A stretch of DNA of 64,000 nt from Vineibacter terrae (GTDB taxonomy: Bacteria; Pseudomonadota; Alphaproteobacteria; Reyranellales; Reyranellaceae): assembly GCF_008039615.1 (NCBI RefSeq), contig NZ_VDUZ01000029.1, positions 1 through 64,000 on the forward strand. Reading direction: 5' to 3'. The notes under the pieces are model-generated. The model saw nothing but the letters and a program-made list of their open reading frames with translations. It was not told the origin of the DNA and made no database searches. This document shows positions 3,885 to 56,550 of the stretch, piece by piece (the stretch's first letter is position 1; each line of letters starts with the position of its first letter). Made by a program: the position numbers and the translations under genes.

Positions 3885-3971
3885 GTCATCCCGAGCGTAG
3901 CGAGGGATCTCCCCCGAATGACGCACTCGTGCGCCCGTCCGCAGGAGATCCCTCGCTGCGCTCGGGATGAC
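3885..3971. repeat. Family A palindrome, copy A2
   Basis: Full copy: GTCATCCCGAGCGTAGCGAG on the left and CTCGCTGCGCTCGGGATGAC on the right. It fills the gap between the convergent SapC and FecR-domain genes, starting 14 bases after the SapC stop and ending 10 bases before the FecR gene's stop codon. Confidence 0.9.
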
Positions 3972-3980
3972 AGGATCTCC

Positions 3981-6839
3981 CTACCGCTTGCCAGCGAAGA
4001 TGCCGGTGGCGCGGTAGGCGGCGCCGTTGATCGCGAAGCTGCCGGCCTGGTAGGCGACCGGGTCGGTCGGGCTGCGGAAGAAGGAGCCGTTCAGCGCGCC
4101 GCTGCGGCCACCGCCGGTGACCGTGGCGACGAAGTCCCGCGGCGTCCGTGGCGCGGCGGAGGGGCCGGTGTAGTCGGTGCCGTCGAAGCTGGTGATCGCC
4201 ACCGAGCCCGAGCGGGTGCCGAAGTTCCAGGCCTGGCGGTAGCCGCCGGCTGCAACGTAGCGGTCGTTGCCGTTGGTGACGTTGCCGATGATGTGGCCGC
4301 TGTAGGAGGCGGTGCCGTAGACCGGGATCTGCGCCACGCTCGCGAGCTCGCCGGCGACCCAGGTTCCCAGGTGCATGCGGTCGCGCTGGCCAGCGCGCGG
4401 GCCGCTGTCGTAGCGCACATCGCCGGCCCAATATCCCCACGACAGGTATTGGCAGTCGCAGAAGCTCACGCCGCTGGGCAGGAGGTTCTGCACCGGCACG
4501 CTGGACTGGGTCACGGCGAACACCCGCGCATCGGCGGGATTGCCGTGGCCGTAGGTGGCGCCGACCGTGGCGCTCTGCGCCATCGCGAAATTGGCGTCGT
4601 CGATGAAAGCCGAGCGTGACCGGTTGGGCCCCGAGAGGCCGCCGAGCGCCAGGGTCAGGTCGGGATGGTGGTGATGATGGCCGGCACGCTTCAGCCGCAG
4701 CGTCGCCTCGACGCGGTTGCTGGACGCGTCGGTGGTGATGCCGACATCGGTCGGGCGCCTGTTGCGCAGGCTGTATTCGGAGATGTTGCCTGACGCGTCG
4801 ACCGTCTCGACATTGGCGCCGGCATAGCCGTTCATCGGGCGCGTGGTCCGCCGGCTGCCGAGCCCGTCGGGCACCGCCGCCGGCACCGCGAGCGCGAGCG
4901 GATAGTAGCTGTCGGTCGAGCTCAGGTTGTCCAGCGGCTGCCGCAGGGCCGCCTGCTGCGTGCGCGTGCTGTCGTTGATGCCGTTGGTCACCAGGCTGTC
5001 GGGGCCGAGCACCATGTATTCGGCGTGCGGGCCGTAGATCGCGGTCCCGGTCTGGGTTTCCATCGTCGAGGCCGCCGACGCGAAGCGCACGGTGTGGTCG
5101 CTGGCCGCGGCGCGCAGCGAGCCGCTGAACAGGCCGGACAGCGCGATCGCGTCAGGCTTGGTGTAGTCGGTGATGTAGGTCGCCAGCATCAGCCCGATGT
5201 AAGAGGACTGCGCGCTGCCCTGGCCCACGATCCCGAGCGAGGCCTGCATCGCCACCGCACGCTGGTTGGGATCGGGCGCGCTGGCGATCAGCGGCACGTG
5301 CGCGTTGGGCGAGTAGACCGACAGCAGCGGCGAGTTGAAGGCCGAGAGGATGGCGGGCCGCAGCGCGTCCTGCGGCGGCACGAAGGCGGTCGGCGAGGTC
5401 AGGGTTGCCGACTGGACGCCGACCAGGACATGGGCGCCGAACCCGGAGATCGGCAGGCCGTCGCTGGCCGTGGGCGTGCCGCCGAACACGCCGCTGAGCT
5501 TGTCCGGGGCGTTGTTGGGCACGAAGACATAGGCGAAGAAATCACCACCGACCGATGTCAGCCCCAGGCCGGTCAGCGGCCCGAAGCTCGAGCTGGTGTT
5601 GCCGGCGGTGAGCGTCACGGCCGCGCCGGGACTCCAGGGCAGGGTGAACGCGGCGCCGCTCTGGGTGGTGAGCGCCAGCGTCGTGCCGCCGACCACCGAA
5701 GCGCTGATCAGCGCCGCGTTGTTGGCCGGATCGCGCGGCGCGGCCAGCGTGGCGTTGTTGAACTGGGTGTAGGGCCGGTCGGCGATGTAGCGCCCCTGGC
5801 CCGGGATCAACACCACGCTGGGTGGTGCTGGCGGCGGTGGCGGTGCCGGCGGCGAGGGCGGCTGCGCCTGTGGCGGCTGGGGCTGGGGCGTCGTCGGCTG
5901 GGGCTGGGGCTGGGGTTGCGGTGCCGGTGGCTGCGGCGCGGCCTGCTGCACCGGCTCGGGCGGCGGCGGTTGCTGCGACGGTCCGGTCGGGCCGGGCGGT
6001 GCCGGCAGGAGGAAGGATTGCCCCGACCGGCTGTTGGCATCGGCGCTGGCCGTGTTGGTCAGCTGCGCCATCGTGGTGGCGGACGCCGTGCCGTTGGCCG
6101 TGGTCGCGGGCGCGATGGCGCCGGGGGCCAAGGCGGAGTTCACGCCGCTCACGCCGGATTGCGCCAGCCCCTGCTCGATGCTGGACGGTGCCGGCGTGCC
6201 CGCGGCCGACGCTGGCCGCGACGCTTCCAGGGCGCCGTTGGGCGCCGCCAGCTCGGTGCGCAGCGCCAGGCGCGGCTCGCCCGGCCGCCGTCCGGTCGCG
6301 ATCTCGATGATCGACCCGGGGCGGCGCGCGACCTCCTCGCCGTTGGCGTTGGTGACCCGCATGCGCTCGCCGAACAGGAAGAACGCCTTCACGGCCGTCG
6401 GCACCGAGGCGTCGATCACGCTGATGCCGCCGCGGATGCCGATCGTGGCGGCGGGCGTCTTGACCACGGCTTCCGACGACTTGGTGATGTTGCCGCCGAC
6501 CAGGCGGAACACGCCCTTGGTGACGGTGACCGCGATGTCGCCCGCCTTCTTGTCCGGGTCGTAGACGTAGCGGTCGATCACGATCTGGCTGCTGGGCCCG
6601 ATGGTGAGCGCCGTGCCGTCGTTGAACAGCAGGTGGGCCCGGTCGTTGGCCGACGTGCGGATCGCTTCGTTGGCGACGACGTCGGTGCCGACGCGCAGGA
6701 TGCGGTCCTGCTGCGCCGGCGGCGTGCCGATCGGCTCGCCTGCTGCCGAGCTGGTGACGCCGACCTTGGACTGCGCGCCGACACCGTGCAGCGCCAGCAT
6801 GGTGGCGCACAACAGCCCAGGAACGGAGGTCATCCTCAT
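3981..6839 (-). CDS. FecR-domain protein with proline-rich linker and C-terminal TbpB-like barrel
   Basis: This is a 952-residue secreted or surface protein. In order: a signal peptide (residues 1-22, hydrophobic core LLCATMLALHGV, then GAQS) with no lipobox; a FecR domain (about 40-160, with a TIGIRGG motif); an Ala/Ser-rich stretch; a Pro/Gln repeat linker (about 283-345); a long middle region; a run of five histidines near 720; an FCDC...WGYW motif near 795; and a C-terminal beta-rich domain (about 845-952) with alternating Gly/aromatic strands as in TbpB-like lipoprotein barrels. FecR domains usually sense signals in the periplasm; here it is joined to a cargo-like barrel. The gene lies 28 bases downstream of the TPR/beta-barrel gene, surely one operon. 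I infer that the neighbour exports it. The ligand is unknown; the His run suggests metal or haem. Confidence 0.8.
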   Translation of the reverse strand: MRMTSVPGLLCATMLALHGVGAQSKVGVTSSAAGEPIGTPPAQQDRILRVGTDVVANEAIRTSANDRAHLLFNDGTALTIGPSSQIVIDRYVYDPDKKAGDIAVTVTKGVFRLVGGNITKSSEAVVKTPAATIGIRGGISVIDASVPTAVKAFFLFGERMRVTNANGEEVARRPGSIIEIATGRRPGEPRLALRTELAAPNGALEASRPASAAGTPAPSSIEQGLAQSGVSGVNSALAPGAIAPATTANGTASATTMAQLTNTASADANSRSGQSFLLPAPPGPTGPSQQPPPPEPVQQAAPQPPAPQPQPQPQPTTPQPQPPQAQPPSPPAPPPPPAPPSVVLIPGQGRYIADRPYTQFNNATLAAPRDPANNAALISASVVGGTTLALTTQSGAAFTLPWSPGAAVTLTAGNTSSSFGPLTGLGLTSVGGDFFAYVFVPNNAPDKLSGVFGGTPTASDGLPISGFGAHVLVGVQSATLTSPTAFVPPQDALRPAILSAFNSPLLSVYSPNAHVPLIASAPDPNQRAVAMQASLGIVGQGSAQSSYIGLMLATYITDYTKPDAIALSGLFSGSLRAAASDHTVRFASAASTMETQTGTAIYGPHAEYMVLGPDSLVTNGINDSTRTQQAALRQPLDNLSSTDSYYPLALAVPAAVPDGLGSRRTTRPMNGYAGANVETVDASGNISEYSLRNRRPTDVGITTDASSNRVEATLRLKRAGHHHHHPDLTLALGGLSGPNRSRSAFIDDANFAMAQSATVGATYGHGNPADARVFAVTQSSVPVQNLLPSGVSFCDCQYLSWGYWAGDVRYDSGPRAGQRDRMHLGTWVAGELASVAQIPVYGTASYSGHIIGNVTNGNDRYVAAGGYRQAWNFGTRSGSVAITSFDGTDYTGPSAAPRTPRDFVATVTGGGRSGALNGSFFRSPTDPVAYQAGSFAINGAAYRATGIFAGKR

Positions 6840-6867
6840 GATGTCTCTCCCTGCCGCCCGAGGCGGC

Positions 6868-8211
6868 TCAGAACCGCCATGTCATGCCGACCATGGCGAT
6901 GTAGTTGACGTAGGCGAAGTTGGGCAGCGTCGATGAGCGCGAGTTGCGGGCGCCCTGCACGACCACCGCGAGGCGCTCGGCGACCGGTATCTGCAGCGTC
7001 GCCGACAGGCGCCACTCGCGGTCGCGCCGCGTCGTGTTCGGATCGATGGTCGGGTCCGGCTCGGCATAGTTGTCCCACAGGCGCGCCGCGGAGAGCGCCA
7101 GCGAGATCTGGTCATCGGGCGCCCACGAGGGCCGTCCCATCGTCGCGATCAGGCCCACGCCCAGCAGCCATTCGTTGTAGGTCTCGAACGGCTTGTTGGC
7201 ATCGAAGCGGCCGATGCCGGCGGTGGCGCCCAGCGACAGCCACGGCAGCACCTGCCAGTCGGCCGACAGCCGCCCGAACTTCTCCCAGCCGGTGCGGAAA
7301 TCGTTGAACGGCCGCGTCGCGCTGTTGTGGTAGTCGCGCCGCCGCAGCTCGGCGACGAAGCCGGCCGACACGCTGGCCCATTTCTTGTCGATGTTGACGC
7401 CCAGGCCGGGCGCCACATATTCCGTCGACGAGCCCAGGATCACATAGTCGAATGCGGCATAGGGCCGGATGCTGACCTGCGGCAGCGCCGAGGGCAGCAG
7501 CCACAGGCGCGGGCCGCTCGACAGGCTGGCATAGAGCAGGTTGACGTCGGTGGCCTTGAACTGCCGCGCGACATAGAGCGTCCCCTGGGTGTCGAGCGCC
7601 TCGCCGCCCTGCGTGCCGAAATCCCACAGATGCTGGAAGGTGCCGATGATGAAGGCGTTCCAGTCCTTCCTGGACGTCGATTGCCGGTCGAGCTGCGCGT
7701 CGATGCCGCCGAAGCGGACGGTGCCGCCGGTGGGCGCGGCGTTGGCGTTCGACTGGTAGCGGAAGCCCCACAGCAGGCTGCCCGAGAATTTGTGCGGATT
7801 GATCTGGCGGTCGATCTCGGCCAGGAAGGCCTCGGCCCGCGTCCGCACCGTCGGCGGCACGTCCGGCAGGGCGAGTACGTCCGTCACGTAGCGGCGCGCC
7901 ACCTGGTACGAGCCCAGCCGGTAGTAGAGCACGCCGAGCTCCAGACGCACGCGCGGCAGGTTGGGCGCGATGATCAGCATGCGCTCCAGCGCGGCAACGG
8001 CGCCCTCCAGGTCGCCGACCTTGATCGCCAGCTCGACGAAGGCGAACGCCTTCTGGAGGTCGCCCGGATCGGTGATCATCGCCTTGAAAGCGGCATCATA
8101 GGCGGCACGGTCGGACGGCGCCGGCTGTGCCTGCGCGGTCGATCCAAGCGGCACGCCGCATGTCAGGCACAGGGACAGGAGTCCTGCCCGCAGCCACGTT
8201 GATCCACGCAA
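6868..8211 (-). CDS. TPR/outer-membrane beta-barrel protein, Slam-like
   Basis: This 447-residue protein has a signal peptide (residues 1-28, ending AQAQP), an N-terminal TPR-like helical region (about 33-135, with repeats such as GDLEGAVAALERML and LGVLYYRLGSY), and a C-terminal region of alternating amphipathic strands ending in MVGMTWRF, the terminal aromatic typical of outer-membrane barrels. This order is that of Slam proteins (surface lipoprotein assembly modulator), which move TbpB-like cargo to the cell surface. The next gene encodes a protein with a TbpB-like barrel, which supports that reading. Slam homology is my inference from architecture; a generic DUF560-type porin is the alternative. 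The start at 8211 gives the signal peptide. Confidence 0.72.
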   Translation of the reverse strand: MRGSTWLRAGLLSLCLTCGVPLGSTAQAQPAPSDRAAYDAAFKAMITDPGDLQKAFAFVELAIKVGDLEGAVAALERMLIIAPNLPRVRLELGVLYYRLGSYQVARRYVTDVLALPDVPPTVRTRAEAFLAEIDRQINPHKFSGSLLWGFRYQSNANAAPTGGTVRFGGIDAQLDRQSTSRKDWNAFIIGTFQHLWDFGTQGGEALDTQGTLYVARQFKATDVNLLYASLSSGPRLWLLPSALPQVSIRPYAAFDYVILGSSTEYVAPGLGVNIDKKWASVSAGFVAELRRRDYHNSATRPFNDFRTGWEKFGRLSADWQVLPWLSLGATAGIGRFDANKPFETYNEWLLGVGLIATMGRPSWAPDDQISLALSAARLWDNYAEPDPTIDPNTTRRDREWRLSATLQIPVAERLAVVVQGARNSRSSTLPNFAYVNYIAMVGMTWRF

Positions 8212-8513: not shown

Positions 8514-9425
8514 TCAGGCGCCTGCAATGCGCTCGCGTGCCCGCACCCGCTCGCGATGCAGGATGTAAAGCCCCGAGCCGATGATCAGCGGCAGGCCGCC
8601 CCATAGCCACGGTGTCGGTATCTCGCGCCAGAACAGCCAGCCGTAGCCCAGCGCGAAGACGATCGAGATGTAGTCGAACGGCGCCAGCACCGCGGCCGGC
8701 GCCAGCCGCCAGGCACGCGTCACCAGGATCTGGCCCAGCCCGCCGATCACGCCCAGCGCCAGCATCCAGAGCCAGTCGATAGCGGTGGGCCACACCCAAA
8801 GCGTGCCCAGCGGCTCGCCGGCCACGGCGTTGGTGACGATGATCAGCCCGCTGACGCCGATCGCCGCCAGCGAATAGATGGTGATCGTGGTCTGGTCGCT
8901 GTCCGTGCGGCTCAGCCGGCGCACGCAGATCATCGACAGCGCATAGCACAGGGTGGCGGCGAGCACCGCCAGCGACAGCGGGTGGAAGGCGGCCGAGCCC
9001 GGCTGGACGATGATCAGCACGCCGGCGAAGCCGACGCCGACCGCGCTCCAGCGCCGCCAGCCGACGCGCTCGCCCAGCAGCGGCACGCCCAGCGCCGTCA
9101 TGAAGAGCGGTGCGGCGAAGGAGATCGCGTAGAGCTCCGCCAGCGGCATCAGCGGGAAGAGGTAGAAGAAGCCGTACAGCGACAGCAGCGATGCCGCCAC
9201 GCGCACCGACTGCAGCAGCGGCTGCCGTGTCGCCAGGGTCTGCCAGCCGCCTGCCGCCTGGATCAGCCAGAGCTGCGGCAGCAGGCCGAACAGGCTGCGG
9301 CAGAACATCACCTGCAGGGTCGGGTAGTGTGCATCGAGCCCCTTCACCATGGCGTCCATGGTGGAGAGGAGCGCGATCGCCATGATCTTGTTGTAGATGC
9401 CGCCGACGGGATCGATCAGCGACAT
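8514..9425 (-). CDS. DMT-family (EamA) transporter
   Basis: This 303-residue inner-membrane protein has about ten hydrophobic helices in two EamA halves. Features of the family include FCRSLFGLLPQLW in the first half and DYISIVFALGYGWLFWREIPTP near the end, the usual last-helix motif. Members export metabolites or amino acids; the substrate here is unknown. The ATG at 9425 (MSLIDPVGG) places the first helix at a normal distance. In-frame ATGs at 9485 and 9497 would add 20-24 polar residues, and none of the three has a strong ribosome site. It is divergent from the cyclase gene, with palindrome A3 in between. Confidence 0.85.
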   Translation of the reverse strand: MSLIDPVGGIYNKIMAIALLSTMDAMVKGLDAHYPTLQVMFCRSLFGLLPQLWLIQAAGGWQTLATRQPLLQSVRVAASLLSLYGFFYLFPLMPLAELYAISFAAPLFMTALGVPLLGERVGWRRWSAVGVGFAGVLIIVQPGSAAFHPLSLAVLAATLCYALSMICVRRLSRTDSDQTTITIYSLAAIGVSGLIIVTNAVAGEPLGTLWVWPTAIDWLWMLALGVIGGLGQILVTRAWRLAPAAVLAPFDYISIVFALGYGWLFWREIPTPWLWGGLPLIIGSGLYILHRERVRARERIAGA

Positions 9426-9558
9426 GGCAGGAAGGCGCAACGCAACATCGCACGCGGAAATAGCATTGCGCCGCGGTGGTGTCATCCGAACAGACATGGG
9501 ATGATCGCAGCAGGCGTCGCGGCGCGCGACGGGCAGGGCGATCGCATAAGGCCCTTCT

Positions 9559-9661
9559 GTCATCCCGAGCGCCAGCGAGGGATCTCCCGCAGCAGGACGC
9601 ACGGTGCGCTGTTCGCGGGAGATCCCTCTTCTGAGCCTGTCGAAGGGGCGCTCGGGATGAC
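9559..9661. repeat. Family A palindrome, copy A3 (asymmetric)
   Basis: The left arm is the short form (GAGCGCCAGCGAGGGATCTC). The right arm is the long form and includes CTGAGCCTGTCGAAGG, as in copies A6 and A10. Outer arm remnants extend on both sides (around 9530 and 9690-9720). It lies in the divergent gap between the DMT and cyclase genes. Confidence 0.85.
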
Positions 9662-9724
9662 AGGAGTGGCGGCCGCGCGACCTTGCGCCATATGCGCTCG
9701 CCCTGGCGCGACGGGGAGCGCTCG

Positions 9725-11989
9725 ATGAGGCTGGCGCTGGCAAGGCGGTGGAGCAGGCGGCTGCCGGTCGTGGCGCCGCTGCTGATCCTGGTCGCCGCCT
9801 TGGCGCTGCGCGTGGCCGATCCGCCCGGCGTCGCCCGCCTGCGCGACTTCGCCTTCGATACCTTCCAGCGGCTGCAACCGCGCAGCTACGACCCGCAATG
9901 GAACGTGCGCATCGTCGATATCGACGAGGCGTCGCTGGCGGCTTACGGCCAGTGGCCATGGCCGCGCGACCGCATCGCCAGGCTGGTCGACAAGCTCACC
10001 GAGCAGGGCGCCGCCGTGATCGCCTTCGACGTGCTGTTCGCCGAGCCCGACGCCTCGTCGTGGCGCCGCCGGGTGCGCGAGCTGATCGCGTATGTCGATC
10101 CCGAGACGGTGCAGCGCATCGCCAACGCGGTGCAGGACAACGACCAGCTGCTGGCCGACGCCTTCGCGCACTCGACCGTGGTCACGGCCTACGCCTTCGA
10201 CGTCGCCACGCGCGCGAGCCGGCCGCCGGCGCTGCGCCACGGCTATGCCATCAGCGGCGAGGATCCGCAGCGCTTCATCGGCCGCTATGCCAGCGTCGTC
10301 ACGACGCTGCCGCTGCTGGAGGCCGGCGCCAAGGGCAATGGCGGCATCACGCCCGACTACGACATCACGGTCATCCGGCGCGTGCCGCTGCTGCTGCGGC
10401 TGCAGGACCAGCCGCATGTCTATCCGGCGCTGGCGATGGAAGCGGTGCGCACGGCGCTGGGCGCTTCGACCTACATCGTGCGCGGCGCCACCTCGGGCGG
10501 CGACCTGCCGTGGCTGGCGCGCGTGATCGCCCCGTTCGAGGAGGGGGTGCAGTCGGTGCGGGTCGGCGACAAGGTCGTGCCCACCGACCGCAACGCCAAC
10601 CTGCTGCTCTACGACAGCGGCCACCAGCCGCAGCGATTCATTTCAGCCAAGGACGTGCTGGAGGACCGCGTCCCCAGGGACAAGGTCGAGGGCAGCATCA
10701 TCTTCATCGGCACCAGCGCGGCCGGCCTCAAGGACATCCGCAACACGCCGGTCGATACCGCCATCCCCGGCGTCGAGATCCACGCCCAGGCGGTCGAGCA
10801 GATCTTCACGGACGTCTATCTCTGGCGGCCTTTCTTCGCCGGCTTCCTGGAGGGCGGCTTCCTGCTCGCCGTCGGCTTGCTGTTCGTGTTCCTGATGCCG
10901 CGCCTGTCGGCCGGCTGGGAGGCGGTGCTGGCGGTGGCCGGCGTGGCCGCCGGGCTGGCCGTGCCCTGGATCCTGTTCGCCGGCGAGCGCATGCTGGTCG
11001 ATCCGATCTATCCGCCGGCCACGCTGGCCCTGATGTACGCCGCCAGCTCGGCATCGAGCTTCATGCTGACCGAGCGCGAGCGGGCCCAGATCCGCGGCGC
11101 CTTCGGCCTCTACCTGTCGCCGGATGTGGTCGAGGAGCTGGCGCGCAGCCCCGAGCGCCTGCAGCTGGGCGGCGAGGAGCGGGCGCTGACGGTGATGTTC
11201 ACCGACGTGCGCGGCTTCACCACCATCGCAGAGCAGTTCGACCCGCAGGGCCTGACGCGGTTCATGAACCGCTTCCTGACGCCGATGACCAACATCATCC
11301 TGGCCGAGCGCGGCACGATCGACAAATACATGGGCGATGCCATCATGGCGTTCTGGAACGCGCCGCTGGACGTGCCCGACCACGCCGCGCGCGCCTGCCG
11401 CACGGCGCTGGCCATGCAGGCGCGGCTCAAGGCGCTGAACGTCGAGTGGCGCGAGCAGGCGCACGCCGAGGGCCGCAACCATATCGCGGTGACCATCGGC
11501 ATCGGCCTGAACACCGGCCGCGCCTCGGTCGGCAATTTCGGATCGGATCAGCGCTTCACCTATTCGGTGCTGGGCGACGACGTCAACCTCGCCGCCCGCC
11601 TCGAAGGCCAGTGCAAGGCCTACGGCGTGGCGGTCATCGTCGGCGAGGACACGCGGGTCCAGGCGCCGGGCTTCGCCTATGTCGAGCTCGATCTCATCAA
11701 GGTGAAGGGCAAGACCGAGCCGGAGCGCATCTTCGCGCTGGTCGGCGACGCCGGGCTGCGCGAGTCTGCGGGGTTCGGGGCGCTGCTGGCGGCGCACGCG
11801 GCCTTCCTGGCCGAGTATCGCGCCGGGCGCTTCGCCGAGGCCCGCCGGCTGGCGTCGGCGGCGAAGGCGCAAGCCGAACTGGCCGGCTGGTCCGGCACGT
11901 ACTATGACCGCATGCGCAAGCGGCTGAAGGTGATCATCGCCGATCCGCCGGCGGTCTGGGACGGTGTCTACGAGGCCAAGGAGAAGTGA
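9725..11989 (+). CDS. CHASE2-domain adenylate/guanylate cyclase
   Basis: This 754-residue class III nucleotide cyclase is anchored in the inner membrane. Residues 12-30 form a first membrane helix. A periplasmic CHASE2 sensor follows (about 32-340, with VRIVDIDEASL and WPWPRDRIARL), then three closely spaced helices (about 370-450), then the cyclase catalytic domain (about 475-670). The metal Asp in FTDVRGFTT, the second Asp in DKYMGDAIMAFW, and the VLGDDVNLAARLE motif are intact, so the enzyme should be active. The Lys of DKYMGD fits an adenylate-type purine pocket. The start at 9725 has GGGGAG eight bases upstream, which favours it over an ATG at 9683. The downstream DUF4392 gene overlaps its stop (TGATG). 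The CHASE2 ligand is unknown. Confidence 0.92.
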   Translation: MRLALARRWSRRLPVVAPLLILVAALALRVADPPGVARLRDFAFDTFQRLQPRSYDPQWNVRIVDIDEASLAAYGQWPWPRDRIARLVDKLTEQGAAVIAFDVLFAEPDASSWRRRVRELIAYVDPETVQRIANAVQDNDQLLADAFAHSTVVTAYAFDVATRASRPPALRHGYAISGEDPQRFIGRYASVVTTLPLLEAGAKGNGGITPDYDITVIRRVPLLLRLQDQPHVYPALAMEAVRTALGASTYIVRGATSGGDLPWLARVIAPFEEGVQSVRVGDKVVPTDRNANLLLYDSGHQPQRFISAKDVLEDRVPRDKVEGSIIFIGTSAAGLKDIRNTPVDTAIPGVEIHAQAVEQIFTDVYLWRPFFAGFLEGGFLLAVGLLFVFLMPRLSAGWEAVLAVAGVAAGLAVPWILFAGERMLVDPIYPPATLALMYAASSASSFMLTERERAQIRGAFGLYLSPDVVEELARSPERLQLGGEERALTVMFTDVRGFTTIAEQFDPQGLTRFMNRFLTPMTNIILAERGTIDKYMGDAIMAFWNAPLDVPDHAARACRTALAMQARLKALNVEWREQAHAEGRNHIAVTIGIGLNTGRASVGNFGSDQRFTYSVLGDDVNLAARLEGQCKAYGVAVIVGEDTRVQAPGFAYVELDLIKVKGKTEPERIFALVGDAGLRESAGFGALLAAHAAFLAEYRAGRFAEARRLASAAKAQAELAGWSGTYYDRMRKRLKVIIADPPAVWDGVYEAKEK

Positions 11990-25485: not shown

Positions 25486-25570
25486 GTCATCCCGAGCGCA
25501 GCGAGGGATCTCCTGCGAATGGCGCACCGTGCGTCTTTCGCGGGAGATCCCTCGCTACGCTCGGGATGAC
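25486..25570. repeat. Family A palindrome, copy A7
   Basis: Full short-form copy with GTCATCCCGAGCGCAGCGAG and CTCGCTACGCTCGGGATGAC. It lies between the quinone oxidoreductase terminator hairpin and the VOC gene. Confidence 0.9.
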
Positions 25571-54345: not shown

Positions 54346-56550
54346 ATGAGCGCGCGCGATTTCGAGGCGTTGACGCATTCCCACTATGGCAAGCCGCTGC
54401 GCTGGTGGCGCTACGGCGACGATTTCGCCGTCGCCAGCGTCGTTGCGCGCACCGGCCGTCTTCTGGCCCTGCCGGCAGTCCGCAACGGCGCGCATTGCTA
54501 CTGGGGCGAGCCGGCGCCGCCGCTGCCGCTCTATCGTGCCGCGACGCTTGAGCTGCGGGCGCAGGCGCCGGTGCTGGTCGTCCAGGGCGAAAGCGCCGCC
54601 GACGCGGCGGCCGGGCTGTTCACGGACCATGTGTGCATCACATGGGCGGGCGGCGGCAACGGTGTCGCCAAAGCCGATGTCATGCCGCTGCATGGCCGCG
54701 ACGTCATCCTGTGGCCCGACAACGATGGCGCCGGCGCGACCGCGATGGCCCGGCTGGCGACGCGGCTGCGCGGCGTGGCCCGCACCGTCGTGCAGGTCGC
54801 GGTGCCGCAGGCGTGGCCGGCATCATGGAACATCGCCAGGCCGCTGCCGGCCGGCATCACGGCCGAGACCCTGCGCGCGATGCTGCCCGGCATGGAACTG
54901 CACGGCGGCACCAGCTTGCGCCGGGAAGATCACGACTGTCATCCCGAGCGCAGCGAGGGATCTCCCGCGAATGGCGCACCGTGCGTCTCTCGCAGGAGAT
55001 CCCTCGCTGCGCTCGGGATGACAATGAAGATGTGCGATCACCCTGCGCCGACGGGAGAAGCGCCCGTGACCCAGCCTGTCCAACCCGAGCCGCCGTCGGT
55101 CCCGCCATCGGCACCTGACGGCGCCTGGCCGGCACCGGACCGGTCGCTGCTCGACGACCGGCAGGGCGATGTGCCGGCATTTCCAGTCGAGCTTTTGCCG
55201 GGCTTCTGGGCCAGCTGGTGCGATGGTGCCGCGCGCGGCCACGGCGTGCCGGTCGACTATGTGGCGATGGCGCTGCTGAGCGCGGCGGCCGGGCTGATCG
55301 GCGCCGCGCGCTGCGTCGGTCCGGTGCCGGGATGGACGGAGCCCTGCTTGCTGTGGACGGTGCTGGTGGGGCCGTCCGCTTGCGGCAAGACGGCCGGCAT
55401 GGATGCCGCGCTGCATCTGGTGCGTGCGCTGGACCGCGAGCTCGAGCCGGCGAACGCCGATCTGCTGGGCCGGCACACCGTGGCGCAGGAGGAGGCGCGC
55501 TGGGCCGCCTTCTGGTGGCGCAAGATGATGCGCCGGGCCGTGATCACCAACCGCGAGCGGCCGCCGATGCCCGCCGCCGTGCTGCAAGCGCCGGTCTTCG
55601 CGCCGCGCCGGCTCGTCCTCGAGGGTGCGGCCGTCGACACGGTCGCCGGCGCGCTGCGCGGCAATCCGCGTGGCCTGCTGCTGGCGCCTGACGGACTCGC
55701 CGCCTGGCTCGACACCGTGGCCGGCGCCGGCAAGGCGGATCCGGCGCGGGCGTGGTGGTTGAAGGCATGGTCGGCTGGCGGCGGGCCGGTGCGGCGTGCC
55801 GGCGATCAGGCCTGCGGCGCCGCCAGCGTCCTGGGCGCGATCGAGCCCGATGCGCTCGCCGCCGCGCTGGCCGGCGACGACGACAGCGTCGGGGCGCGGC
55901 TGCTGTTTGCGCAGCCCGGGCGCGGCCCGGTGGCGGTGTTGGGGGAAGGGGCGGCGGCGTTGGCGGCGCCGGCGCAGGCAGCGCTGCGCCTTTTGCGCGA
56001 CATACCCGACACGCCGCGCACCCTGGCGTTGTCCGCCGGCGCGCAGGCGGCCTTCGAAGGCTTCCGGAAGATGCTCGATATCGATGGGCTGGAGGATGCC
56101 GAAGCGGCGTGGTGCAGCCGCGGGCCCAGCCTCGTGCTGCGCCTCGCCGGCATCTGGACCTTCCTCGACTGGGCGGCGCAGGCCACGGGCAATGAGCCTC
56201 GCGCTGTCGGGGCGCCGGCGCTGACGGCGGCAAGCGATCTCTGGCTGCGCTATCTGTGGCCGCATGCCCGATCGGTGCTGGGCACGATCGGTACTGGCGG
56301 CCGGCGGCGCCGGATGCGCAAGGTGCTGCTGTGGATACGGCGCCGGGGATTGGCCGAGATCGGGCGCGAGGATGTGTGGCGCCACGCCCGCGCCGCCCGC
56401 AACGCGCCGGACGCCGATCTCCTGCTGGATGGGCTCGTGGCCGCCGGTTGGCTGCGGCCGGTCGATGCCATCAGGGCAGGGCGGGGCCGGCCGCGGCTGC
56501 GCTGGCAGGTGAATCCCGGGCTGCTGGATGGGGTGACCCATGAAGCGTGA
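54346..56550 (+). CDS. Toprim/DUF3987 primase-helicase-like protein with an embedded palindrome
   Basis: This 734-residue protein joins a Toprim-like N-terminal domain (LVVQGESAADAAAG near 76, ILWPDNDGAG near 122) to a DUF3987 ATPase (VGPSACGKTAGMD near 342, then RPPMPAAVL). The layout is that of phage- or plasmid-type replication proteins, so it is probably of mobile origin. Codons 198-226 are family A palindrome A11, read in frame as CHPERSEGSPANG and SRRRSLAALGMT; they fall in the linker between the domains and are not conserved. A Pro-rich stretch follows. The frame is otherwise intact. No phage structural genes are nearby. Confidence 0.78.
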   Translation: MSARDFEALTHSHYGKPLRWWRYGDDFAVASVVARTGRLLALPAVRNGAHCYWGEPAPPLPLYRAATLELRAQAPVLVVQGESAADAAAGLFTDHVCITWAGGGNGVAKADVMPLHGRDVILWPDNDGAGATAMARLATRLRGVARTVVQVAVPQAWPASWNIARPLPAGITAETLRAMLPGMELHGGTSLRREDHDCHPERSEGSPANGAPCVSRRRSLAALGMTMKMCDHPAPTGEAPVTQPVQPEPPSVPPSAPDGAWPAPDRSLLDDRQGDVPAFPVELLPGFWASWCDGAARGHGVPVDYVAMALLSAAAGLIGAARCVGPVPGWTEPCLLWTVLVGPSACGKTAGMDAALHLVRALDRELEPANADLLGRHTVAQEEARWAAFWWRKMMRRAVITNRERPPMPAAVLQAPVFAPRRLVLEGAAVDTVAGALRGNPRGLLLAPDGLAAWLDTVAGAGKADPARAWWLKAWSAGGGPVRRAGDQACGAASVLGAIEPDALAAALAGDDDSVGARLLFAQPGRGPVAVLGEGAAALAAPAQAALRLLRDIPDTPRTLALSAGAQAAFEGFRKMLDIDGLEDAEAAWCSRGPSLVLRLAGIWTFLDWAAQATGNEPRAVGAPALTAASDLWLRYLWPHARSVLGTIGTGGRRRRMRKVLLWIRRRGLAEIGREDVWRHARAARNAPDADLLLDGLVAAGWLRPVDAIRAGRGRPRLRWQVNPGLLDGVTHEA
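54938..55022. repeat. Family A palindrome, copy A11, inside a coding sequence
   Basis: Full short-form copy (85 bases) lying wholly within the Toprim/DUF3987 gene. GATCAC occurs at 54928 and again at 55036, exactly 108 bases (36 codons) apart, as a target-site-like duplication would give. A right outer arm (TGCGCCGACGGGAGAAG) continues to about 55068. Confidence 0.92.

Follow-up and report, generated by a model that had tools for sequence, protein, structure and literature searches.

Does a pair of adjacent genes near the start of a contig of the alphaproteobacterium Vineibacter terrae encode an outer-membrane exporter and its own client, and what might that client be for? The genes lie in a window of 64,000 nucleotides (contig NZ_VDUZ01000029.1, positions 1 to 64,000, of assembly GCF_008039615.1), for which a first-pass annotation, made from the letters alone, had proposed a Slam-like translocator paired with a FecR- and TbpB-like cargo. 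Both genes are where it placed them, on the minus strand and 28 bases apart: P0002 (447 aa, TTG start, 6868..8211) and P0001 (952 aa, 3981..6839). The pairing is more than chance, as adjacent homologues occur in many genomes and both structural models are confident. We propose that the two are probably a translocon of the Slam/type XI secretion system (T11SS) family and its dedicated cargo, with export predicted. That the cargo signals to a CHASE2 adenylate cyclase is a more finely balanced proposal, to which we lean slightly less than to its opposite; the cyclase gene (9683-11989) and the CHASE2 link were absent from the earlier annotation.

We first considered what kind of protein P0002 is. 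The SlipAM model (PF04575) did not match P0002 even at an E-value of 10, whether the protein itself or its genome was scanned. P0002 can thus be only a far Slam relative, and because the model is silent in the window's genome, membership was established through profiles. An alignment (A3) of 59 barrels, comprising the window and 58 further places (all those listed with E ≤ 2.4e-11 minus a contig-end fragment, G227:C58, plus the weaker G126 and G169), matched six Slams with an E-value of 1.2e-32 over 374 columns; five of these Slams came from PF04575 loci and one was annotated as such in L115. The barrel portion alone still matched with hhalign (E 9.3e-19 over 279 columns), and reversing either side brought this to 0.04-0.06, while a TPR-only profile gave 1.2e-16. 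Pfam TPR_9, a tetratricopeptide repeat (TPR) family, was found in P0002 itself (E 2.1e-9). Among 20 aligned homologues, at E ≤ 1, TPR_Slam (PF24575) was present in 16 and SlipAM in 7 (best 7.9e-14), and six members of the P0002 clade pass the SlipAM cut-off. By these sequence relationships, P0002 is a divergent Slam/T11SS-family outer-membrane protein, which bears out the Slam-like label that it had been given.

The AlphaFold2 model of P0002 was confident (mean pLDDT, the predicted local distance difference test, of 92.6) and showed six helices after the leader, forming the putative periplasmic TPR region (residues 32-137, 7801..8118), and then 14 long strands of an outer-membrane barrel (residues 140-446, 6874..7794) that run up to a terminal TWRF, the Trp-Arg-Phe ending already noted. 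The best solved-structure fold matches of the barrel were CymA and OmpG, which are themselves 14-strand barrels. Slam has been described as a TPR domain with a predicted 14-strand barrel (PMC5449769). Could the barrel instead be an unrelated porin, next to P0001 by accident? The Foldseek/VIA fold matches listed, which are general porins, BcsC and other barrels with no Slam among them, would suit such a protein, and a PDB sequence search with P0002 returned TPR repeats only. Rows of the porin type do not separate Slam from porin, and the fold search was therefore used for the strand count only. The barrel-only Slam match with its clean reversed controls and the recurrent adjacency to FecR-TbpBBD genes described below refute the porin explanation on present evidence.

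In a quick tree of 93 barrels, 52 P0002-like sequences formed one group with SH-aLRT support of 100, and four other places weakly matched by P0002 fell among ordinary Slams. The tree left out three barrels with open reading frames (ORFs) below 400 aa and 15 further Slam loci that were duplicates, clade members already included, fragments or doubtful. The closest named relative of P0002, at 77% identity, is from Reyranella sp. CPCC 100927. A FecR gene was present in the stretch covered for 40 of the 52 clade members. P0002 thus shares with known Slams the TPR region, the 14-strand barrel and a neighbouring cargo gene, and differs from them in belonging to a separate, divergent clade that PF04575 catches only in part.

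Next, we examined the predicted cargo. P0001 opens with a hydrophobic leader that looks like a signal peptide (judged by eye, no predictor being used), followed by a FecR/PupR-type cell-surface-signalling domain at residues 23-205 (6225..6773). The FecR domain of the first-pass annotation was recovered both by PF04773 (E 1.5e-9, residues 59-138) and by fold, residues 55-207 superposing on the PupR signalling domain 6ovk_R with a Z-score of 16.1 and a root-mean-square deviation (rmsd) of 2.6 over 137 aligned positions. The P0001 model, also confident (pLDDT 84.5), shows this compact domain, disorder at about 206-335, and then a beta-rich folded middle. The partly Pro-rich linker seen earlier spans residues 206-339 (5823..6224), with pLDDT below 50 at 211-221 and 230-320; the equivalent stretch in 42 cargoes measures 42-243 residues, with a median of 87. 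The middle region (residues 340-667, 4839..5822) folds mostly with confidence and may be a first TbpB lobe. Foldseek aligned P0001 with the whole two-lobe TbpB over about 600 columns, with so poor a superposition (TM 0.16, rmsd ~21) that the lobe assignment is tentative.

The C-terminal part of P0001 (residues 668-952, 3984..4838) resembles the handle and barrel of the TbpB C-lobe (5kkx_B, Z 14.2, rmsd 4.0, 196 aligned), and residues 773-952 resemble the C-terminal domain of NHBA (6cuj_A, Z 12.5, rmsd 2.7, 145 aligned, 24% identity). Eight barrel strands are modelled at residues 843-951. The fold neighbours included TbpB, NHBA, hemophilins, HpuA and an fHbp chimera. At the profile level, the last 153 residues matched eight cargo tails adjoining ordinary Slams (E 1.4e-12; reversed control, 0.56), which upholds the TbpB-like barrel of the earlier description. 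An iterative profile built from this tail also recruits cargo adjoining ordinary Slams; as iterated E-values are inflated by inclusion, they were kept out of the evidence. Single-sequence matches were fainter: NCBIfam slam_lipo reached residues 825-952 with E 3.4e-5 and 24.2 bits, far under the model cut-off of 80 bits, and in a PDB sequence search no E-value was better than 1, with a weak NHBA match (Gna2132) at 9.2.

No lipobox was seen in P0001 by eye or with a simple pattern, in keeping with the first-pass claim. A loose lipobox pattern matched 5 of 67 FecR ORFs, none of them at a signal-peptide end that was convincing by eye. Of the smaller motifs singled out earlier, all present in the translation, the FCDC motif (residues 793-796, 4452..4463) stands immediately before the barrel and belongs to a C-x-C...W-G-x-W pattern kept in 28 of 42 aligned cargoes; 11 of the 14 that lack it are short forms. 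The five-His run (residues 721-725) is not conserved among the aligned cargoes and was rejected as a cargo feature. A compact form of about 400-430 aa, with leader, FecR domain, linker and TbpBBD, is common and is found, for example, in Reyranella loci. A conserved stretch resembling VGVTSATDGDPLGKPP directly follows the putative signal peptide in FecR cargoes, its start pattern fitting 25 of 42. At the other extreme of size, one cargo in genome G281 (L131:4134-8471, 1445 aa) has FecR and TbpBBD ends with cadherin repeats between, so that, from this one sequence, the middle part of such cargoes looks exchangeable.

We then asked whether the two genes travel together, and for how far. Genes like P0002 were found in at least 77 of 289 genomes of the class (E ≤ 0.001), some by their TPR region only. 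Many locus stretches end at contig ends. In the 59-barrel set, a FecR gene lay within 400 bp of 39 barrels, and in 36 cases it was on the same strand and downstream. The named loci are the top 80 among 172 relatives; at least 10 of them appear to lie on contigs already in the 59-barrel set, so the two sets are not independent. In 62 of the 80, a FecR gene adjoined the barrel, and in 47 of those 62 it carried TbpBBD. The proviso of the first-pass annotation, that homologues regularly found apart would speak against it, holds in part: 18 of the 80 had no adjacent FecR gene, and 15 of these 18 had at least 600 bases of sequence downstream. As a rough control, FecR was seen in 5 of 37 other Slam rows, namely L238 and, from one genus, L241, L243, L245 and L248; for most of the 37, the sequence covered extends only 1.5 kb to either side, and the FecR label was set by hand for L241, L245 and L248 (from the wider stretches L254, L255 and L256) and by likeness only for L243.

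Barrels that stand alone were a particular concern, and an absence of any cargo could be rejected for four of the seven such genomes examined (an eighth, G195, was set aside as its barrel gene runs to a contig end). FecR-TbpBBD genes occur elsewhere in these four: at least two in G160, six in G281, one in G187 and one in G025. These gene contents would most naturally be read as a single exporter serving several clients. Three loci, L149, L156 and L168, have two FecR-TbpBBD cargo genes beside a single barrel. Outside the class, the gene after a Slam-like barrel in L258 and L259 encodes a separate protein that matches CsgG-like and TPR families; in L259 this protein also shows weak FecR similarity and is accompanied by a further protein with a weak TbpB_B_D match. 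Going by these matches, a split form of the cargo is possible.

Taken with published accounts, these features suggest a route for P0001. The published Slam model has the cargo kept unfolded, its C-terminal motif recognised and the chain passed through the barrel (PMC9090332), and the TXISS-1B branch, which includes HrpB-HrpC and the hemophilins, is reported to export a non-lipidated, soluble TbpBBD cargo (PMC8406197). P0001 resembles the cargoes of that branch in having no lipobox and Slam cargoes at large in its C-terminal eight-strand barrel. We infer that P0001 would be made with a cleavable, non-lipid signal peptide and cross the inner membrane by Sec, after which the TbpB-like barrel would target it to the Slam barrel of P0002, and P0002 would move it to or across the outer membrane. 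P0001 differs from known Slam cargoes in beginning with a FecR signalling domain. FecR/PupR domains are periplasmic signalling modules in other systems, and the presence of one here may mean that the cargo signals and is not solely a nutrient binder. If the FecR domain stays in the periplasm, the protein would be a trans-envelope receptor for some outside ligand; if it passes too, a secreted or surface binder.

A FecR domain also brings to mind the classical FecI-FecR-FecA arrangement, of which P0001 could be a variant whose sigma factor and TonB receptor genes lie in other places. The PupR-like fold would fit, and there is a precedent for such genes beside a Slam: in Lysobacter sp. 3655, orf4990-4994 are reported as a consecutively numbered series of a sigma factor, a FecR family regulator, a TonB receptor, a Slam-dependent TbpB-like lipoprotein and Slam (PMC11233812). 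There, FecR is a separate gene in a classical set-up with sigma factor and TonB receptor, and the consulted part of that paper names no FecR-cargo fusion and no CHASE2 cyclase. In P0001, the domain scan and the sequence reveal no anti-sigma domain, and the protein starts with the signal-peptide-like leader where PupR/FecR regulators would have that cytoplasmic domain. As the first-pass annotation had remarked, no sigma factor or TonB receptor is seen nearby, which sets the locus apart from PupR/FecR regulators and, as regards the TonB receptor, from known Slam systems: none was found among 16 other ORFs scanned in the 0-30 kb interval, where not every ORF was scanned and beyond which the genome was not searched. 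We consider the classical variant highly improbable.

A different receiver is encoded close by. P0003 (9683..11989, plus strand, 768 aa) is a CHASE2 adenylate/guanylate cyclase (PF05226, E 2.4e-55; PF00211, E 1.7e-19) whose gene is divergent from the barrel gene and 1.5 kb from it, with an EamA transporter ORF (8517-9959) between them. Under our proposal of an exported signalling cargo, a CHASE2 cyclase such as this one would be the likely receiver. CHASE2 genes lie near 22 of the 58 other barrel loci, where 0.42 would be expected by chance, and counting the window makes it 23 of 59, the expectation coming from CHASE2 counts at E ≤ 1e-10 and the observed loci from phmmer at E ≤ 1e-3. At the level of genomes, CHASE2 was present in 51 of 54 barrel genomes (three of which, G042, G057 and G075, have ordinary Slams) against 67 of 235 others, and FecR in 48 of the 54 against 52 of 235. 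In a plasmid of Shinella sp. H4-D48 (L112), barrel, FecR protein and cyclase are consecutive on one strand. Outside the window's class, all three stretches from one genus (L254-L256) have genes for a FecR-TbpBBD protein, a barrel that SlipAM recognises (E 2.7e-19 in L254) and a CHASE2 cyclase, one after another on the same strand. In another lineage (L257), a gene next to that of a Slam-like barrel encodes a protein of 1152 aa with a FecR match and a TbpB_B_D match below cut-off. Across the wider family, CHASE2 linkage is thus well above chance, and it recurs outside the class; it further distinguishes these loci from known Slam systems. The proposal of an alphaproteobacterial Slam-cargo system with a FecR domain therefore stands as regards the pair, and proves too narrow as regards the class.

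Several side observations concern these cyclase loci. In L112 the barrel-FecR-cyclase row is followed by bacteriocin export genes of the NHLP type and a gene for a cyclic-nucleotide-binding protein, and a comparable set adjoins the FecR and cyclase genes of Ensifer L113. In L068 and L071, a P0002-like barrel directly precedes a CHASE2 cyclase, and the gene on its other side encodes a different, secreted-looking protein; no FecR gene was detected near the barrel in either.

FecR proteins are known to keep company with CHASE2 sensors elsewhere, and this invites an alternative in which export is not the main task. Reported cases are a LysM-FecR and CHASE2 histidine kinase operon in Burkholderia (PMC5192318), the FecR protein SMc02177 near cyaD1 (PMC5498481), and clusters of a CHASE2 cyclase, a FecR outer-membrane protein and a TPR protein in Campylobacterota (PMC9239204). 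All pair a FecR protein with a CHASE2 sensor as here, and differ in that the parts of those accounts consulted report no Slam-type barrel or TbpBBD. Closest is NsrA-CyaK of Sinorhizobium meliloti, which unites FecR, TPR, an outer-membrane region and a CHASE2 cyclase in one locus. NsrA and CyaK are described as needed for plant signal perception, and NsrA residues 600-1200 as its beta-barrel portion (PMC7529298). We took the NsrA sequence from an unannotated pSymB record by its protein length and its position before a CHASE2 cyclase, since nsrA, as we assume, immediately precedes cyaK in S. meliloti; the gene at L124:3229-6888, directly before cyaK, encodes FecR (E 2.3e-15) and TPR matches. NsrA is one chain with FecR, TPR and a large C-terminal outer-membrane region, in which no TbpBBD was seen, whereas here the parts are split over two genes and the cyclase is divergent at 1.5 kb.

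By analogy, P0002 could be an outer-membrane receptor and P0001 its periplasmic transducer to the cyclase, the two being a split NsrA. Besides the NsrA layout and the Campylobacterota clusters, the strong co-occurrence of CHASE2 with FecR (96 of 100 FecR genomes against 22 of 189 others) and the FecR partners without a detectable TbpBBD would favour such a complex. The similarity, though, is confined to FecR for P0001 (E 9e-5) and to TPR for P0002 (E 4e-5), so P0002 was rejected as a relative of the NsrA barrel, and NsrA, to judge by these matches, is an analogue with the same kinds of parts rather than a homologue throughout. Also against a split NsrA, P0002 is a Slam relative, a single barrel with several dispersed cargoes suits an exporter better, and SMc02177 was reported to be dispensable in the published assay of plant signal perception (PMC5498481). 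We hold this alternative to be possible but rather unlikely. The analogy nevertheless supports the idea that a CHASE2 cyclase can receive its input from a combination of FecR, TPR and outer-membrane barrel.

The opposite simplification keeps the export and drops the signalling. In plain soluble T11SS secretion, the whole of P0001 would be released or held at the surface as a binder or adhesin, its FecR domain would be a reused beta module, and the cyclase would be incidental. Export of a non-lipidated TbpBBD cargo by TXISS-1B (PMC8406197) is a precedent, one cargo does carry cadherin repeats, and a CHASE2 gene was found in the stretch covered for just 8 of 80 close relatives, a count on which a regular operon with the cyclase was rejected as a rule of the close family. 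The closeness of the FecR fold to the PupR signalling domain and the CHASE2 linkage of the wider family, recurring outside the class, speak for something more. Plain secretion seems to us doubtful as a full account, though these alternatives overlap in part with our own proposal and this one shares its export step.

In weighing that proposal of a translocon with a dedicated, signalling cargo, several further results count against it beside the silence of PF04575 on P0002 and the rarity of the cyclase among close relatives. Twelve of the 52 clade members have no detected FecR gene in the stretch covered. Three lone-barrel genomes (G067, G157 and G011) have only FecR genes without a TbpBBD match, some of them cut by contig ends, and other FecR partners likewise show no TbpBBD by sequence; a TbpBBD tail is therefore not always needed. 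As for the cyclase, the gene in the window is divergent with the EamA gene intervening, that of the same-family genome G280 is, among the matches listed, on another contig, and the genome-level counts given above ignore kinship and genome size. On balance, the observation is confirmed, and the earlier interpretation is supported and largely holds.

One more specific arrangement would join export and signalling. The C-terminal lobes of P0001 could be displayed at the surface through the Slam barrel while the FecR domain stays periplasmic and the linker runs through the barrel; on ligand binding outside, the FecR domain would then pass the signal to an adenylate cyclase by way of the latter's periplasmic CHASE2 domain. 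We regard such a threaded receptor as improbable in this precise form. If it were true, a secretion channel would be the frame of a trans-envelope receptor, a new mode of signalling across two membranes, used by the whole T11SS clade and arrived at or kept also outside the class.

How much of this is already in print? For the T11SS cargoes verified to date, PMC12282271 names the roles of adhesin, hemophore and metal-binding protein. None of the main texts of PMC8406197, PMC12282271 and PMC5449769 contains the word FecR, and cyclases are unmentioned in the main texts of the two T11SS surveys searched for the word, supplementary tables being outside these searches. Within the same bounds, and mostly at the level of titles and abstracts, we found no description of FecR fused into a T11SS cargo, of the FecR-linked barrel clade or of its CHASE2 cyclase link. 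The stronger statement that no paper links FecR to Slam was rejected, as the Lysobacter paper has both in one gene series. The first-pass view of the combination as under-described thus holds for the fusion and not for a separate FecR regulator in a Slam-TbpB series; FecR-CHASE2 pairs without Slam, too, are in print, as far as the consulted parts of those sources go. What the locus adds is an entire barrel clade of the T11SS type, of which the Pfam model detects only a part, with ties to FecR domains and often to CHASE2 cyclases. CHASE2 sensors would gain a candidate outer-membrane input, NsrA-CyaK would be joined by a second example, and free-living bacteria might employ T11SS in sensing. The CHASE2 neighbourhood of the pair hints that bacteria may sense their surroundings via the Slam export route.

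Finally, we note two minor observations. The record CP090106.1 (L115), titled S. meliloti pSymB and 3.72 Mb long, contains CHASE2 and FecR matches as neighbours, in keeping with the cyaD1/SMc02177 region, and its replicon label may be swapped. The window itself contains a dispersed repeat, with 11 copies of CATCCCGAGCGNAGCGAGGGATC at up to 3 mismatches where 0 are expected. Copies lie at 939-1018, 3887-3969, 12959, 15560, 25488-25568, 28590 and 54940-55020. Four inverted pairs account for eight of the copies; within a pair the starts are 57-60 bases apart, and one of the pairs lies immediately downstream of the cargo gene.

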